A DNA stretch of 24,386 bases from a virus. Positions 736 through 7,361 of the stretch are shown here, one piece after another; positions within the stretch are counted from its first letter, which is position 1; every line of letters starts with the position of its first letter. A program made the position numbers and the translations under genes. The notes beneath the pieces are model-generated. The model saw only the letters and a list, made by a program, of their open reading frames with translations, did not search any database and was not told the origin of the DNA. The DNA is taken from positions 1 through 24,386 of the IMG/VR virus record IMGVR_UViG_3300009173_001007. One strand, given 5' to 3'.

Positions 736-2418
736 TCATATTTGAAAAACTTTTTGAACAATCAGACTGTCCTTTTTCTTAGACCTCTGTCCCGTTACAA
801 GGACGGTGTTTCCTTCGTATAGCAAATGTTTATTTTTTGCCCACTCGTCGCTAAAGCAAATAACATTGTCTAATTCGCAACTACTGTCTTCTAAAGTCAA
901 AAACCCCATTTTTTGTCCTTTGGATTGTCCTTTAGTGATTTCATATTCACGAGATGATTTTACCGCAACCGCTAAAACTGCGGTCCCGTTTCTGCCACTG
1001 AAAAACTCTTTGCATGTTGAGTTTGCGGCGCCTGTATCACAAGAGTCTACTTTAGAATATGTAAGGCAAGTTCCCAGCAATTCTTCCTCGGTTCCAGAAA
1101 CCCACTCGGGGTCATCTTGAAGGGGGTAGGGGGAAGATTCCAATTGATACACATAGTCTGCGACAATCTCAGACCTTTTTATTGTAGAGGTTCCTCCACC
1201 GTTCTTTTTCGTGGGCCGTAAATGCTCTAAGCACTGTTTGAGGTTTTCCCAATCGGAGTCCTCCACATTGTTGCCAACCCACTCTCTTTCCTTTGCCGTT
1301 AATTTTGCCCATATATCATATTCGTATAACATTTTGTTTCTGCTCAAGCCCATGTGTGATAATGCACCGGCTGATATTAGAGAAGTTATCACCTTGCTGG
1401 TGACCTTGGTGGCACAAGATACTAAAAATTCTAACCAAGACCAATCCGCTGGAGGCTTGCACAACTCACGGGTAGCTTCAAGGACTGCGTTAGTCAACTT
1501 TTCTAATTGGCTGTCCCCGATAAATTTTACGTCTCCCACACCAAAGTTGATTTCGTTATTATATATGGAAAAGCTGCGATTCATCTTCGCAATCGATGGT
1601 GGGTAAATGGGTACGTCAGAAATTTTTGCATCAGACACCAACTCTCTTATCTCTTGTTGAGAGTCTTGTTTTCCTTTTGAGTAATACAAATAGTTGCAGT
1701 AAAAATTGACAGGAAAATGTGCTTTAGCGTAAGCAGACCAATAACCACAAATAGCATAGCTAACAGCATGGGACTTATTAAAAGAGTAACGATTCGATTT
1801 TTCAATCCAACCGAATATCTCTTCCGCTGTTTCTCTAGAAACCAAACCGACATTTTCTGTTCCAGATAAAAACTCTTTCTTTACCGAGGCCATCAAGTCG
1901 GCCTTCTTTTTGCCTATTGCCTTTCTAAGTTCGTCAGCCTGCTGCAAGTCAAATCCGGCAATTGTCTGAGCAATTTCCATGGATTGTTCTTGATAAACCA
2001 ACACCCCCTGAGTTGATTTTAATATAGGCTCTAAACAGTCGTCAATATAAGATACTTCTTCTTCTCCGTGTTTTCGGTCAACGTAATGCTGTGTCATGGA
2101 CTTTCCGTCCACGATTGCCTTCAAGCATCCCGGTCTAATCAAGGCCCCAAGGGCGGCTAGTTCCTCTATATTTCTAGGCTTTAACCTCTTGGCCCAAGAT
2201 TTTCCCAGATTGCTCTCAAGCTGAAAAACACCCTTGGTCCTGCCGTCACATATCAAACCCCATGTTTTTTCACAGGTATAAAAGTTAACATCCTCGTCCT
2301 GTTTTTCTTCGACATCAAAGATAATCGGTGGCAGACCGGTTTGCTTCTTTGTGACCGAGCCTTTGTCTATTTCAGAAATGTCGAATTCGCACCCGCATTT
2401 AAACGTATAGTGTGCCAT
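736..2418 (-). CDS. dnaE: DNA polymerase III alpha (DnaE-like), C-terminal half: fingers, beta-binding region and OB fold
   Basis: These 560 residues carry the DnaE signatures that follow the palm: VFQLES (64-69), RPG (95-97), YQEQ (142-145), FNKSHAVSYA (213-222), then an ELLG motif and a C-terminal OB domain (about 470-560) with the MGFLTLED pattern. They match E. coli alpha from just after its third catalytic Asp. The palm is missing and lies in the separate gene at 3729-5717, so both products must associate to form an active enzyme. The ATG at 2416-2418 is chosen because AAAAGG stands 8-9 nt before it; a TTG at 2452-2454 would add 12 residues inside the exonuclease gene. The first 30 or so residues (CGC at 8-10) have no DnaE counterpart. 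The tau-binding tail of E. coli alpha is absent. No intein motif is seen. Confidence 0.9.
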   Translation of the reverse strand: MAHYTFKCGCEFDISEIDKGSVTKKQTGLPPIIFDVEEKQDEDVNFYTCEKTWGLICDGRTKGVFQLESNLGKSWAKRLKPRNIEELAALGALIRPGCLKAIVDGKSMTQHYVDRKHGEEEVSYIDDCLEPILKSTQGVLVYQEQSMEIAQTIAGFDLQQADELRKAIGKKKADLMASVKKEFLSGTENVGLVSRETAEEIFGWIEKSNRYSFNKSHAVSYAICGYWSAYAKAHFPVNFYCNYLYYSKGKQDSQQEIRELVSDAKISDVPIYPPSIAKMNRSFSIYNNEINFGVGDVKFIGDSQLEKLTNAVLEATRELCKPPADWSWLEFLVSCATKVTSKVITSLISAGALSHMGLSRNKMLYEYDIWAKLTAKEREWVGNNVEDSDWENLKQCLEHLRPTKKNGGGTSTIKRSEIVADYVYQLESSPYPLQDDPEWVSGTEEELLGTCLTYSKVDSCDTGAANSTCKEFFSGRNGTAVLAVAVKSSREYEITKGQSKGQKMGFLTLEDSSCELDNVICFSDEWAKNKHLLYEGNTVLVTGQRSKKKDSLIVQKVFQI

Positions 2419-3082
2419 CTGCAAATGCCTTTTCAAACTTAGTTTTGGAGCCAATTCTTCTCTGATGCTTCCAGAAGCGTATAAAAATATTAGCCGTATC
2501 TTTCACGTCTTGCAAAGCATCGTGAGCATTATCTGTTTCTAGAGATAAAAAGTCTCTCATGGAATCCATGCTCATAGATTTAACATTTGGATTGCTTTCA
2601 AGCCACCCATAAGCAAGGTCTAAAACATCTACTTTATGAATTTTATGAAAGAGCGCCTGACTACCATTTTTGTCGGTAGGCCCAAACTGTTCGCATAGCC
2701 TTTGTATGATAATCATGTCATAGTTGATAATATTATACCCCACGGGTATAGGGGCAAACCATTGTGTTTTCTTGAAGTTATATTTATTAACGAACTTTAC
2801 AAATTTTTCCCAGACCTGTTTAGGTTGTGGAGCTTTAGCTAGTGTCTTCCTGTCTTTTCTGGTGATGTTTAGGGCTTCTTCCTCCAGAGGGTCTAGCCCC
2901 ATTTCTATTGCCTTTTCATCATCAAGAATGGGGCGAATCTCACTGTTGAAAAACCCTCCGGGCTGTGGGGTCAGCTTTCTGCCATGGATTGCTACCGCCG
3001 CCAATTGTGTCGGCTGCGCCTTATGGGGGTTCTTTGAACCCGTTTCAAAATCAAAGACAATGTAATCTCTATTAGGTATCAT
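2399..3082 (-). CDS. DEDDh 3'-5' exonuclease (DnaQ/epsilon-like proofreading subunit)
   Basis: This 227-residue protein shows the DEDDh exonuclease motifs in order: Exo I DFET (Asp11, Glu13), Exo II GYNIINYD (mid protein) and Exo III AHDALQDVKDT near residue 190. Such enzymes remove mispaired 3' ends using two metal ions. It lies between the two halves of the polymerase, where a proofreading subunit fits well. ATG at 3080-3082 has AAGGAG seven bases upstream and overlaps the end of the gene before it; its own end overlaps the polymerase C-half by 20 nt. Within the family it could also act as a general repair or RNA exonuclease, but the position favours proofreading. Confidence 0.9.
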   Translation of the reverse strand: MIPNRDYIVFDFETGSKNPHKAQPTQLAAVAIHGRKLTPQPGGFFNSEIRPILDDEKAIEMGLDPLEEEALNITRKDRKTLAKAPQPKQVWEKFVKFVNKYNFKKTQWFAPIPVGYNIINYDMIIIQRLCEQFGPTDKNGSQALFHKIHKVDVLDLAYGWLESNPNVKSMSMDSMRDFLSLETDNAHDALQDVKDTANIFIRFWKHQRRIGSKTKFEKAFADGTLYV

Positions 3083-3569
3083 TCAACATCTCCTTAATCA
3101 ATTTGACCGCTTCGGTTTTTTCTAGATTGTCTATCCTTTTGAACAGCCTATCAAGAATAGACTCCTTGGTATATACGTAGCCAGCAGAATTGTTGTCACC
3201 CCCAAAGGCCACCTTTTTGTGAGGCTCAACCTCTTCCATAAATGCTCTTAAGGAAGAAACAGAAGAAGCCCACACCGCTTTAGAACCATCGTCTTCTGGC
3301 AAGACGTGAATCCATAAGTTAGACTTGGTTACGGCAACACCGCTAGGTTTATCGGCCTTGCTGTTGTGATATTCTATGTAAATATTGCCCGTGGTACTAG
3401 ACTTCTCGTCAAATTTAACTTCGATAGTAAATTTCTTTCTCCCCATTTTGCAAGATAGGTCGTAGTCATACCTTTTGTCGTAGTCTTCATTGATTTCGCA
3501 CCTTATGTCAAGAAGTTCAAGGACTTCCTTGGCGCGCTCCTCCCCCTTTTGACCTTTTTGAAAATTCAT
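3072..3569 (-). CDS. PD-(D/E)XK-type nuclease candidate between the polymerase halves
   Basis: A 165-residue protein with a nuclease-like core: RYDYD (Asp35/Asp37), a strand, then E-V-K (Glu50, Lys52), then TGNIYIEYH. This D...ExK arrangement with a following polar strand is typical of small PD-(D/E)XK endonucleases such as Holliday-junction resolvases and restriction enzymes. A helix precedes the core (KGEERAKEVLELL) and another closes the protein. The exact family is not recognised. The ATG overlaps the upstream stop as ATGA. It may be a replication or recombination nuclease or a free-standing homing-type nuclease that helped split the polymerase gene; the sequence alone does not decide. 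Confidence 0.6.
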   Translation of the reverse strand: MNFQKGQKGEERAKEVLELLDIRCEINEDYDKRYDYDLSCKMGRKKFTIEVKFDEKSSTTGNIYIEYHNSKADKPSGVAVTKSNLWIHVLPEDDGSKAVWASSVSSLRAFMEEVEPHKKVAFGGDNNSAGYVYTKESILDRLFKRIDNLEKTEAVKLIKEMLNDT

Positions 3570-3784
3570 CTAATTTTTCTCTTAAGCTCTAGAAATTTCT
3601 TTACAGCTTGCGAGGAACTTTCATAGAACTCGCTATGCTTAACCCTTGTGTCGTCGCAATGAACTTGGTACAGAGTCTTTCTACGAAAAGAATTGCCCTT
3701 ATAATCGTTAATTGTGCATAGGGATAGTCTACCCTTCTCCAACGCACACCCGTCCAGTAGAACCGCTTCGTAATACTTCTCCAT
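3566..3784 (-). CDS. Small hypothetical protein overlapping the end of the polymerase N-half
   Basis: A 72-residue basic protein with no recognised domain; the second half is Lys/Arg-rich and probably helical (SSQAVKKFLELKRKI). ATG at 3782-3784 has GAGG 6 nt upstream, a good ribosome site, so it is probably translated. It starts 56 nt before the stop of the polymerase N-half, so the last 18 or so residues of that polypeptide are read out of frame through this gene. Its stop overlaps the next start as ATGA. Function unknown. Confidence 0.6.
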   Translation of the reverse strand: MEKYYEAVLLDGCALEKGRLSLCTINDYKGNSFRRKTLYQVHCDDTRVKHSEFYESSSQAVKKFLELKRKIR

Positions 3785-5717
3785 CGTTAACCTCTATATC
3801 TCCTGAGAATAATTGATTACTAATACCCATGATTTTATCTAGCAAATTTACGCCCAAAATATCAAATTTAACATGCCCCATAGCCTCTAGGTCTACCATT
3901 TCCATGCCAGCAATTCTGTCTTGTCCTTTAGTTTCTCTAACCATTGGACAAACTTCATTAAGCAATCTGGATGAAATAACCACCCCAGCAGCGTGCTTGC
4001 CTTGAGATTTGTATGTACCCTCAATTCGAATAGCTTGTGCAAATAATTTCGCATACTCGCCATCGAGAGAGCCATCTTCTGCTACCCGACAATAATCACT
4101 CAAGACTTCTGGCTGATGCAACATCGTCCATCGTATCACTGAAGACTCTTCCATGTCTTGTAGTTGGTCCGAAATCTCATGCTCCTGTGGCAGCGCCTTG
4201 GTAATCCTGTTCATCTCATCGTAGGAGCAAGCGTTATGCACACGGAGAACTTCTTTGAGCGCGCTTCTGCCTTGCAATCTCCCAAATGTAACCATCTGGC
4301 TCACATTATTATGCCCATACTTGGATTTAATATAGTCAACTACCTCATCCCTTTTTGTGGCAGGGACATCAATATCTATATCTGGAAGTGAAACGTGGCC
4401 TTCAGAATTTCTTCCCGCGTTATAGAATCTTTCAAAAATCAACCCATACTCAATGGGGTCCACCTGAGTGATTCCCACTAGGTATGACACCAAGCAGCCA
4501 GCAGCGGAGCCTCTACCCGGACCCGGAAGCCAGTCCTGATTTTTTACATAGGAGACAATATCTCTTACGATTAAGAAATACCCTGAAAGATTCGCATCGT
4601 TGATAACCTCTAGCTCTTTCTTAATTCTGTCCACGTAGATGTCTTCGTTTTCCTGTGTAGACACCTTGCCTCGTTTTTTTAGCCTTTGCCTCCATCCTTG
4701 TCTGCATAATTCTCTGAGATATTCCTTTTCGGTCATGTTGTCGGGGCATGGAAACTTGGGAAGGTCGGGCTTGCCCAAAATTTCATAATCCTCACACATG
4801 CTCGCAATAAGTGAAGTGTTTGAAATCTCCTCTTCGGTGTGAATCTCTTTCATCTCTTCTAGAGACGGTATGTGAAAATTATTTGACCGAAAGAATCCAC
4901 TTAGGCCGACATCCTCTCCTGTCAGCAATTTCTCTTCAACTTTTTTAAGCGTTGTTTTCATTGCGGAACAAAGTAGTACCCTCTGGTCCGCTGCGTCTTC
5001 TTTTCTTGGATAATGCGAATCTGCCGTTGCTACCGGAAGAATCCCAGTTTCCTTCGATACTTGTCGCAGACACTCTCCGACCAATTTTGACGCGGGGGAA
5101 TTCTCTTGGTCTATCAGTTGAATCTCGATAAAGAAATTGCCCTTGCGGAAAATCTGTTGATATCGTTCGGCCAAACTGGATGCTTGTTTGAGCCAGTCTT
5201 GCTTCAAAAAAGTTTGAGCTTCTTCAACCGTATTGGAGTTGTAGGCTTTCTTCCAATCGGTGAATAATACATTAGCAAGGTCGCTTCCAAGGTGACCACT
5301 AAAAGACACCAAGTTATTATCTCGGTTGCTTTCTTCAAGAATATCTAAGTCAATTCTGGGCTTAAAATAGAACATATCATCTTTGTTGCTTTTGGAAACA
5401 AGAGCAATAAGATTGTTCCAGCCCTCTTTATTCTTGGCTAAAACTACAAGGTGACTGAGGGTTCTATTTGTCTTCTCTTTTATGGTGGCACTCTGTTGGG
5501 ATAGGTAGAATTCACACCCTAGAATGGGCTTGACACCTTTTTCACGCATCGCTCTGACGAACGAGACGGCCCCTGAAATCGTCCCGTGGTCAGTTACCGC
5601 GCATGCATCGTACCCTAGCTCCTCGCAGCGCTCTGCGACCTGTGAGGGTTTTGAGAGACCGTCTAGGAGGCTGTAGTGTGTGTGTAGGTGCAAGGGGATA
5701 AATTTAACCGGGTGCAT
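3729..5717 (-). CDS. dnaE: DNA polymerase III alpha (DnaE-like), N-terminal half: PHP and palm domains
   Basis: This 662-residue polypeptide is the front part of a bacterial C-family polymerase. The PHP domain opens with HLHTHYSLLDG (His10, His12) and keeps further likely metal ligands: DH at 43-44, Glu69, His142 and DSH at 233-235, which E. coli DnaE has largely lost. The palm has PGPGRGSAAG (about 399-408), LPDIDID (catalytic Asp448 and Asp450) and VKFDILG (third Asp at 619). The protein then stops about 43 residues later, before the fingers. The remainder is the separate gene at 736-2418. ATG 5715-5717 is preferred over the TTG at 5727-5729 because GGA lies 7 nt upstream; it overlaps the upstream stop by 14 nt. 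The final residues look non-conserved, as expected if an ancestral gene was broken here. Confidence 0.92.
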   Translation of the reverse strand: MHPVKFIPLHLHTHYSLLDGLSKPSQVAERCEELGYDACAVTDHGTISGAVSFVRAMREKGVKPILGCEFYLSQQSATIKEKTNRTLSHLVVLAKNKEGWNNLIALVSKSNKDDMFYFKPRIDLDILEESNRDNNLVSFSGHLGSDLANVLFTDWKKAYNSNTVEEAQTFLKQDWLKQASSLAERYQQIFRKGNFFIEIQLIDQENSPASKLVGECLRQVSKETGILPVATADSHYPRKEDAADQRVLLCSAMKTTLKKVEEKLLTGEDVGLSGFFRSNNFHIPSLEEMKEIHTEEEISNTSLIASMCEDYEILGKPDLPKFPCPDNMTEKEYLRELCRQGWRQRLKKRGKVSTQENEDIYVDRIKKELEVINDANLSGYFLIVRDIVSYVKNQDWLPGPGRGSAAGCLVSYLVGITQVDPIEYGLIFERFYNAGRNSEGHVSLPDIDIDVPATKRDEVVDYIKSKYGHNNVSQMVTFGRLQGRSALKEVLRVHNACSYDEMNRITKALPQEHEISDQLQDMEESSVIRWTMLHQPEVLSDYCRVAEDGSLDGEYAKLFAQAIRIEGTYKSQGKHAAGVVISSRLLNEVCPMVRETKGQDRIAGMEMVDLEAMGHVKFDILGVNLLDKIMGISNQLFSGDIEVNDGEVLRSGSTGRVCVGEG

Positions 5718-6726
5718 CGTAATATCCAATGCTAAAGCCCTCTTTTGTACAATCAGAGGTGGTCTTTTCTATGCCATCTTTTTTAAGTTTATCGTGAATA
5801 TGTTGACAAATATTCTTATCTGTCCCCTCCCAGTTGTTCTTATAGTAGTCACAAAGCTTTGTGCATTTCCAGTGAGCCTGTCCCGCTGAGAGCATCTTGG
5901 GCATATCCGTGTCTTGTATCTGTAGGAAGCGATTTTTTAGCATCCCCATAAACTTTTCTTCATCAGACCGGTCAAAGCACAGGGAGAAAGGCCCCCCATC
6001 CTTGATGTAAAAGATGGTCATTATGGCCTGTTGATATTCTGGGAACAATTTAGATATCGCATAGTTATACAGCAGGAGTTGAGGGTCTTGCTCAAGTTTT
6101 TCATAGGTCTTCTCTTGACCCGTTGCCCAATCGACCCTTCTACCCGTTTTCCAATCCACCACTTCTATAATGCCGTCGCCTACCTTTGTGACGAGGTCAA
6201 TCGTCCCCTTGACGGCTAACCGGCCCTTGAGGGTCGAACCATCCGGCGCCTGATACTCGTATTCAGCCCAGTCTTCTTCGATGGGGATGTCGAAGTGAGG
6301 TTCCGTCGCAACTATATCTCGAAGGCGAGGGTCAAATTGACCGTTGTTGTATTCGAGAGCCATCCAAGACCATTTTCTGCAATCGTTCTTCTCTTTCTTG
6401 GTATAGCTATGGGTGCAGTTGGAGGTGTAGTGTTCAAAGCTTTTGTCAACTATGTCGTCAACAAATTCCTCTCCCATTAATTTGCTTTTGGTAAAGGTAA
6501 TCTTTCCAATGGCATCATCCGTAATGCTCATTAAGCCGGAGTCGGGCGAGTCTTGTGTTTTCTTTTTGCATGCAGCAAGACACTCCATCACCTTGTGTAC
6601 AATGGTCCCCATTTGCGCTTTTTTCCCAGACGTTGTGGGATAGCCAAGCACATAGCTTATGAAATACTGCTGTTGACAGAAATCATAATTATTGTATGAG
6701 GAACTTCTGATATAAGTTACTAGCAC
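5704..6726 (-). CDS. RecB/Cas4-like PD-(D/E)XK exonuclease with probable Fe-S cluster
   Basis: About 340 residues. The nuclease motifs appear in family order: GTIVH (motif I His), GTIDLV (Asp), EVVDWKTG (D-x-K) and QDPQLLLYNYA (Q...Y, motif III). One Cys near the start (DFCQQQY) and three near the end (WKCTKLC and NICQH) match the four-Cys Fe-S binding pattern of AddB and Cas4 nucleases. By analogy it resects DNA ends for recombination or degrades DNA; there is no helicase domain. The start is uncertain: GTG at 6724-6726 has AAGGAG four nt upstream and overlaps the thyX stop by 7 nt, while TTG at 6742-6744 adds six residues and has AAGG seven nt upstream. It lies between thyX and the polymerase. 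Confidence 0.87.
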   Translation of the reverse strand: MLVTYIRSSSYNNYDFCQQQYFISYVLGYPTTSGKKAQMGTIVHKVMECLAACKKKTQDSPDSGLMSITDDAIGKITFTKSKLMGEEFVDDIVDKSFEHYTSNCTHSYTKKEKNDCRKWSWMALEYNNGQFDPRLRDIVATEPHFDIPIEEDWAEYEYQAPDGSTLKGRLAVKGTIDLVTKVGDGIIEVVDWKTGRRVDWATGQEKTYEKLEQDPQLLLYNYAISKLFPEYQQAIMTIFYIKDGGPFSLCFDRSDEEKFMGMLKNRFLQIQDTDMPKMLSAGQAHWKCTKLCDYYKNNWEGTDKNICQHIHDKLKKDGIEKTTSDCTKEGFSIGYYDAPG

Positions 6727-7361
6727 GGAACTCCTTCGCTCCAACCAAGCGCCTTGGATATAATTGGAAGCTTACAGGAAAAAATGCCCCATTTGATTGC
6801 GTTTGCTATGTCTCTGTGTTCTTTTTGTGTGGACGGGTCTGTTCGCAATTGTAGATAATGAATCCAGCTTCTAACCGTTCCGTTCATATACATGCGAGTC
6901 TTTGTGTTTAACGGCAATAAAAATCTTGCGCTTTCTTTTGCTATCCCTCTTTTGATAGCTTCTTTATACAGAGAGTAAGACCTTCTGCCCTGTCCGCGAA
7001 CAACTATCTTGAACCATTCTTTATCGTTTTTATCCAAGTTGTCGAAAGAGTTTTGTCTATTCTTTTCATCTTGCCGTCGAGGTTCAATTTCTTCAAATCC
7101 CTCGATTTCAGCATAACGTTGGCTAAACTCCTGAAAAGAAAAGCTTCTGTGCCTGAGAATTTGGGCAGCTATACCTCTTGAGGTGTTAACTTCAATCACC
7201 ATATTTGCCATTTCAAAAATAGACCAATGTCCATTCTTAATACAGAACTTCAGAAGCCCGGACACGTTTGGGTTTCCTTGATTTTTTGGATTGCTCACTC
7301 TCGCGCAATAGCCGATTGTTTCTTCTGCGTTCGGAGTAATGGATATTAGCCTTACGTTCAT
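6720..7361 (-). CDS. thyX: Flavin-dependent thymidylate synthase
   Basis: A 213-residue ThyX. It makes dTMP from dUMP using FAD, NADPH and methylene-tetrahydrofolate. The signature RHR...S.R is present as RHRSFSFQEFSQRY (residues 70-83), with Q in place of the common N at the eighth position. The C-terminal half keeps SARFLLPL and the RSWIHYLQLRTDPSTQKEHRDIA block that binds dUMP and FAD. ATG at 7359-7361 is chosen because the protein then starts MNVRLISITPN, the usual ThyX beginning, and forms an ATGA overlap with the dNMP kinase stop; GTG at 7380-7382 and ATG at 7374-7376 are alternatives. Together with RNR, dUTPase, deaminase and kinase it forms the phage dTTP supply line. Confidence 0.95.
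   Translation of the reverse strand: MNVRLISITPNAEETIGYCARVSNPKNQGNPNVSGLLKFCIKNGHWSIFEMANMVIEVNTSRGIAAQILRHRSFSFQEFSQRYAEIEGFEEIEPRRQDEKNRQNSFDNLDKNDKEWFKIVVRGQGRRSYSLYKEAIKRGIAKESARFLLPLNTKTRMYMNGTVRSWIHYLQLRTDPSTQKEHRDIANAIKWGIFSCKLPIISKALGWSEGVPC

Follow-up and report, generated by a model that had tools for sequence, protein, structure and literature searches.

The polymerase locus

The DNA analysed here (the window) is a viral record of 24,386 bases from IMG/VR, IMGVR_UViG_3300009173_001007, and the genome of this phage is known from that record alone. The minus strand encodes a DnaE-type DNA polymerase in two separate genes, an N half and a C half, with the gene for a DEDDh exonuclease between them (Table 1). 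Reading along that strand, a PD-(D/E)XK exonuclease gene is followed by the N half, a gene of 72 amino acids (aa), a gene of 165 aa, the DEDDh exonuclease and the C half. From the N half onwards each gene overlaps the next, by 56, 4, 11 and 20 nucleotides, the last of these being shared by the 3' end of the exonuclease and the start of the C half. The operon with both polymerase halves also includes helicase, primase and RecA-like genes. An earlier interpretation, made by a model from the letters alone (the sequence-only reading), had placed three genes in the gap, including a DEDDh exonuclease, and our analysis agrees.

Table 1. Genes and motifs of the split polymerase locus in the window.
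Feature	Coordinates	Strand	Basis
DnaE-type polymerase N half: PHP, palm with all catalytic Asp, thumb; 662 aa, ATG at 5717, stop at 3729	3729..5717	-	Pfam PHP, DNA_pol3_alpha; AlphaFold2
DnaE-type polymerase C half: fingers, HHH, OB; 560 aa, ATG at 2418, stop at 736	736..2418	-	Pfam fingers, HHH_6; PRK05673; AlphaFold2
DEDDh 3'-5' exonuclease, 227 aa, proofreading candidate	2399..3082	-	Pfam RNase_T 1.8e-12
DxD(xD) catalytic motif, N-half residues D446 I D448 I D450	4368..4382	-	
Third catalytic Asp, N-half D619 (VKFDILG), about 44 codons ahead of the stop	3861..3863	-	
FQLES motif, C-half residues 65-69, where conserved fingers sequence restarts	2212..2226	-	
FNKSH motif, intact within the C half	1768..1782	-	
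165-aa gene, PHROG 13596	3072..3569	-	PHROG match 3.8e-13
72-aa small conserved gene, overlaps the 3' end of the N half	3566..3784	-	Homologues at the same place in many loci
PD-(D/E)XK exonuclease gene, upstream of the N half	5704-6744	-	

Two halves of a C-family polymerase

Taken together, the two halves contain the domains of bacterial DnaE, the alpha subunit of DNA polymerase III (Pol III; C family; PRK05673, TIGR00594), in the same order: PHP, palm with three Asp, fingers, HHH and OB. Pfam detects PHP (1.8e-41) and DNA_pol3_alpha (5.7e-72) in the N half, and fingers (1.9e-44) and HHH_6 (7e-8) in the C half. The OB match is weak (E 0.00065, under the Pfam cut-off), but the model of the C half nevertheless aligns to Pol III alpha over nearly its full length. 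The AlphaFold2 models have a predicted local distance difference test (pLDDT) score of 89 and a predicted template-modelling (pTM) score of 0.86 for the N half, which matches 2HNH and 2HPI, and of 90 and 0.84 for the C half, which matches 2HPI and 7PU7. The catalytic residues D446, D448, D450 and D619 are all present in the N half, and the polymerase-specific invariant residues, including those of the fingers, are kept in both halves.

The window polymerase differs from bacterial DnaE in consisting of two polypeptides, cut between palm and fingers, and in the loss of the C-terminal region. The N half matches positions 4-567 of the DnaE profile PRK05673 (1146 positions in all) and the C half positions 592-1052; in alignments to structures in the PDB, the N half reaches residue 563 of E. 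coli alpha and the C half starts from residue 595. These limits put the cut where palm gives way to fingers, just past the third catalytic Asp, in agreement with the earlier view that the N half ends shortly after VKFDILG and the C half resumes towards VFQLES. The claim that little or nothing conserved is missing holds at the break itself, where about 24 weakly conserved profile positions are unmatched and each half has extra residues, but it fails at the C-terminus: the last ~90 profile positions, corresponding to the C-terminal domain, are missing from the C half. Judged by its sequence, the window polymerase is an alpha subunit without the usual C-terminal domain.

Conservation of the split in related phages

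Scans with both halves and with an alignment retrieved 240 loci from IMG/VR and seven phage-like contigs binned in metagenome-assembled genomes (MAGs). Several loci share one contig; there are 125 distinct N/C pairs among the first 161 loci, and 179 distinct C halves entered the count of overlaps given below. In 247/247 loci with both halves these are separate open reading frames (ORFs), in the same order and on one strand, always with the exonuclease between them. No fused member was found among the 247, and the single polypeptide that characterises C-family DnaE is replaced by two ORFs in every one. The same procedure applied to bacterial dnaE returned 69 fused genes out of 70. The one broken gene (L227 5074-7859, Clostridiales MAG SIG258) contains, adjoining the codon for the third Asp, a group II intron that carries a reverse transcriptase ORF; detection of this intron serves as a positive control for our intron search.

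The breakpoint is constant between clades at 43-95% identity. For the first 161 loci, 12-40 residues follow (K/R)xDxLG before the N half stops (seven loci with a further break excepted), and the C half starts 14-64 residues ahead of FQLES. The gap between the halves ranges from about 0.5 to 6.7 kilobases (kb) and is filled with complete genes; the C-half start overlaps the exonuclease stop in 122 of the 179 distinct sequences. At the catalytic positions, 239/247 relatives have Asp; the other eight have an N half with a further break just before DxD, which leaves the Asps in a separate ORF. We observed a second break at the DxD codons in L149-L155, L146 and L176 (for example, L149 6126-9119). 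The pieces in L149 are separated by a LAGLIDADG-type ORF; Rfam recognised no intron in L149 or L176.

Between close relatives, the ratio of nonsynonymous to synonymous substitution rates (dN/dS) is 0.05-0.09 for the N half, about 0.07-0.08 for the C half and 0.01-0.03 for the exonuclease. By this measure both halves are under strong purifying selection. A maximum-likelihood tree of 30 split, 22 bacterial and nine cultured-phage polymerases groups the split set in one clade (Shimodaira-Hasegawa-like approximate likelihood ratio test, 100) on a long stem; the tree comes from a quick search, has long branches and an unsure root, and leaves the sister group of the split clade unsettled. Because the split set forms one clade on a long stem, a single ancient fission explains the data. 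The carriers form a large group of phages, uncultured and mostly aquatic. Some of their contigs were binned in archaeal and bacterial MAGs: L178 and L179 (Lokiarchaeota), and L174-L177 and L180 (various).

The halves appear to be the only replicative polymerase in the longer sequences. Each of 19 related contigs of 79-167 kb has one palm and one fingers domain, and neither PolA nor PolB was found in these 19. In 13 further contigs of up to 231 kb, searched for the palm only, there is again one palm each, that of L149 being in two pieces. No unbroken second dnaE, which would have spoken against the sequence-only reading, was found in these 32 distinct long contigs. The lack of another polymerase in contig fragments is strong but not complete evidence.

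The exonuclease and the PHP domain

The DEDDh residues of the exonuclease, D11, E13, D122, H187 and D192, are invariant in 31 relatives, and tblastn found no match to the protein among cultured phages at 1e-5. Its position between the halves in 247/247 loci suggests that it may be the partner of the polymerase and its proofreading subunit. The metal ligands of the PHP domain are kept in the window and in 150 N halves. The remaining 97 of 247 N halves (for example, L029 and L042) have a PHP domain that is shorter by ~100 residues (most of 115-235), with most of the metal ligands gone and the palm intact. The exonuclease is kept in all loci, including those that have lost the PHP ligands, a pattern consistent with proofreading by a separate exonuclease, though not proof of it.

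Comparison with other split polymerases

DnaE divided between two genes is known already. In cyanobacteria the protein is encoded by two genes whose products are joined by a split intein. The window polymerase shares the two genes, but FNKSH, the break site of the cyanobacterial enzyme, is intact in its C half and there are no intein halves. In group 2.2 jumbo phages that have a family B replicase, Iyer et al. 2021 (PMC7824862) reported a minimal Pol III alpha split between distant genes; the break there parts the NTP-binding from the Mg-binding portion, and the two proteins were proposed to reconstitute the enzyme. In contrast to that system, the genes described here lie in one operon, PHP is present, the break falls past the third Asp, and no family B polymerase was found in 19 relatives. 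Two Pol III alpha genes have also been noted in Microbacterium cluster EF phages (PMC7302621), where the genes are adjacent and the break lies between PHP and palm (FreddieHg gp57/gp58).

A dnaE divided into two genes, with the break just before DxD, is present in the Cbastvirus phages phiST and Larrie and in Bacillus phage Jayan; the two genes are adjacent or have a 77-aa ORF between them, with no exonuclease in the gap. In Cellulophaga phage phiST (L171, 41.6-45.2 kb), as in Tenacibaculum phage Larrie (L339), dnaE occupies two ORFs, and both phiST ORFs are unannotated. Pseudomonas phage PB1 does have a 3'-5' exonuclease gene adjoining DnaE, but its DnaE is a single chain and the exonuclease lies upstream rather than in mid-gene. 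Staphylococcus phage S-CoN_Ph8 (L340) has 'DNA polymerase' genes of 964 aa and 285 aa followed by an HNH endonuclease, possibly an interrupted dnaE. We set aside MT836213 and MT835501 (gut 'Bacteriophage sp.') and Pseudomonas phage Y1 as comparators, as their unsplit dnaE appears to lie beside bacterial genes, judging from the translations.

The suggestion that the enzyme is undescribed thus needs to be narrowed, given that split dnaE genes with other breakpoints exist: it is the palm/fingers break with an exonuclease in the gap that looks undescribed. In the open literature, subscription papers being outside our coverage, we found no description of a palm/fingers break, of an exonuclease in the gap, or of the use of such an enzyme as the sole recognised polymerase across a large clade.

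A probable two-subunit replicase and its alternatives

We think it very probable that the operon encodes the main replicase of these phages, an obligate non-covalent two-subunit C-family polymerase with its own exonuclease. The first subunit, consisting of PHP, palm and thumb, would supply the two-metal catalytic centre and the loop that binds the triphosphate of the incoming deoxynucleotide. The second, consisting of fingers, HHH and OB, would hold both primer and template and close around the incoming base. The two would dock where palm meets fingers, a contact made by a covalent loop in ordinary DnaE. The DEDDh exonuclease is the putative proofreading subunit, and the overlap of the genes suggests that translation and assembly of the pieces probably go together. 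That the active enzyme assembles from the pieces without a peptide bond between them is almost certain; we infer its assembly, activity and fidelity from anatomy and conservation. In a more elaborate version, which we regard as tentative and rather unlikely, three proteins (PHP-palm-thumb, exonuclease, fingers-OB) would make up one obligate enzyme, assembled during translation; the exonuclease would stabilise the halves or form a bridge between them, and neither the polymerase site nor the proofreading site would exist outside the full complex.

Several observations weigh against a two-subunit replicase. The association of the halves is something we infer, the models being of single chains only. 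The N half lies 2-6 kb from the exonuclease in some loci (L005, L006), showing that tight adjacency is not essential. The long contigs are incomplete and leave room for a second polymerase elsewhere. Lastly, no beta clamp of the PF00712 type was found in 16 contigs, which leaves processivity unexplained; the clamp would then be either host-derived or of an unrecognised kind.

The product would be one ordinary DnaE chain if a split intein, or a trans-spliced intron flanking the gap, linked the halves after their expression. The cyanobacterial precedent, at another site, lends this idea some credit, as do the LAGLIDADG elements at the DxD codons of relatives, the intein-like insert in their neighbouring exonuclease gene and the group II intron at the third-Asp codon of the bacterial dnaE in L227. 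However, N-half tails of 12-40 aa and C-half heads that can be as short as about 20 aa ahead of FQLES have no room for intein halves, there is no Hint (intein) match at the break, Rfam finds no intron in the window, and the gap, which varies from about 0.5 to 6.7 kb, holds complete genes. The sequence-only reading was right that no intein fragment is visible, and the splicing that would have overturned it finds no trace at the break; we consider joining of the halves very unlikely. Even less can be said for an assembly or frameshift artefact, or for a decaying gene. Fragmented dnaE annotations do occur in single isolates (for example, L100), but here 247/247 loci agree on the split, both halves are under strong purifying selection and the catalytic residues are kept. 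Because all relatives share the order, chance and assembly error, including an error between 2418 and 3729, are excluded, and the comparative data refute decay as well; we give this explanation practically no weight.

The halves might also not be the joint main replicase: one or both could be repair or regulatory factors, the phage relying on a host polymerase or on one that we did not recognise. A parallel comes from the jumbo phages of group 2.2, where a split minimal Pol III stands beside a family B replicase (PMC7824862), and the incompleteness of the contigs leaves space for this reading. We nevertheless judge it improbable, given the absence of PolA and PolB from the 19 long contigs, the polymerase-specific invariant residues in both halves and the operon shared with helicase, primase and RecA-like genes.

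The textbook replicative C-family polymerase is a single chain. A two-subunit replicase in the split clade would show that two polypeptides can together form its active site with no need of splicing, and that a clade of ancient divergence has kept its main replicase cut at the palm/fingers junction. It would offer a natural two-subunit system in which to study how the fingers close on the palm, how proofreading is coupled to synthesis and what leads phages to fix gene fissions. Pipelines that annotate by searching for a whole dnaE will list such phages as carrying fragments.

Neighbouring genes and other observations

The PD-(D/E)XK exonuclease gene of L149 (4141-6129) contains an intein-like insert with a LAGLIDADG domain and the end THN|T. 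A search for the gp23 capsid protein in 16 contigs gave no matches, and the controls gave none either. The 165-aa protein has no Pfam match and its gene is restricted to close relatives, with a dN/dS of 0.12-0.15; its sequence suggests a PD-(D/E)XK-like fold. For the 72-aa gene, we rejected the label 'head-tail adaptor', which comes from a PHROG match (E 0.002) too weak to use. The dN/dS of this gene is 0.10-0.18.
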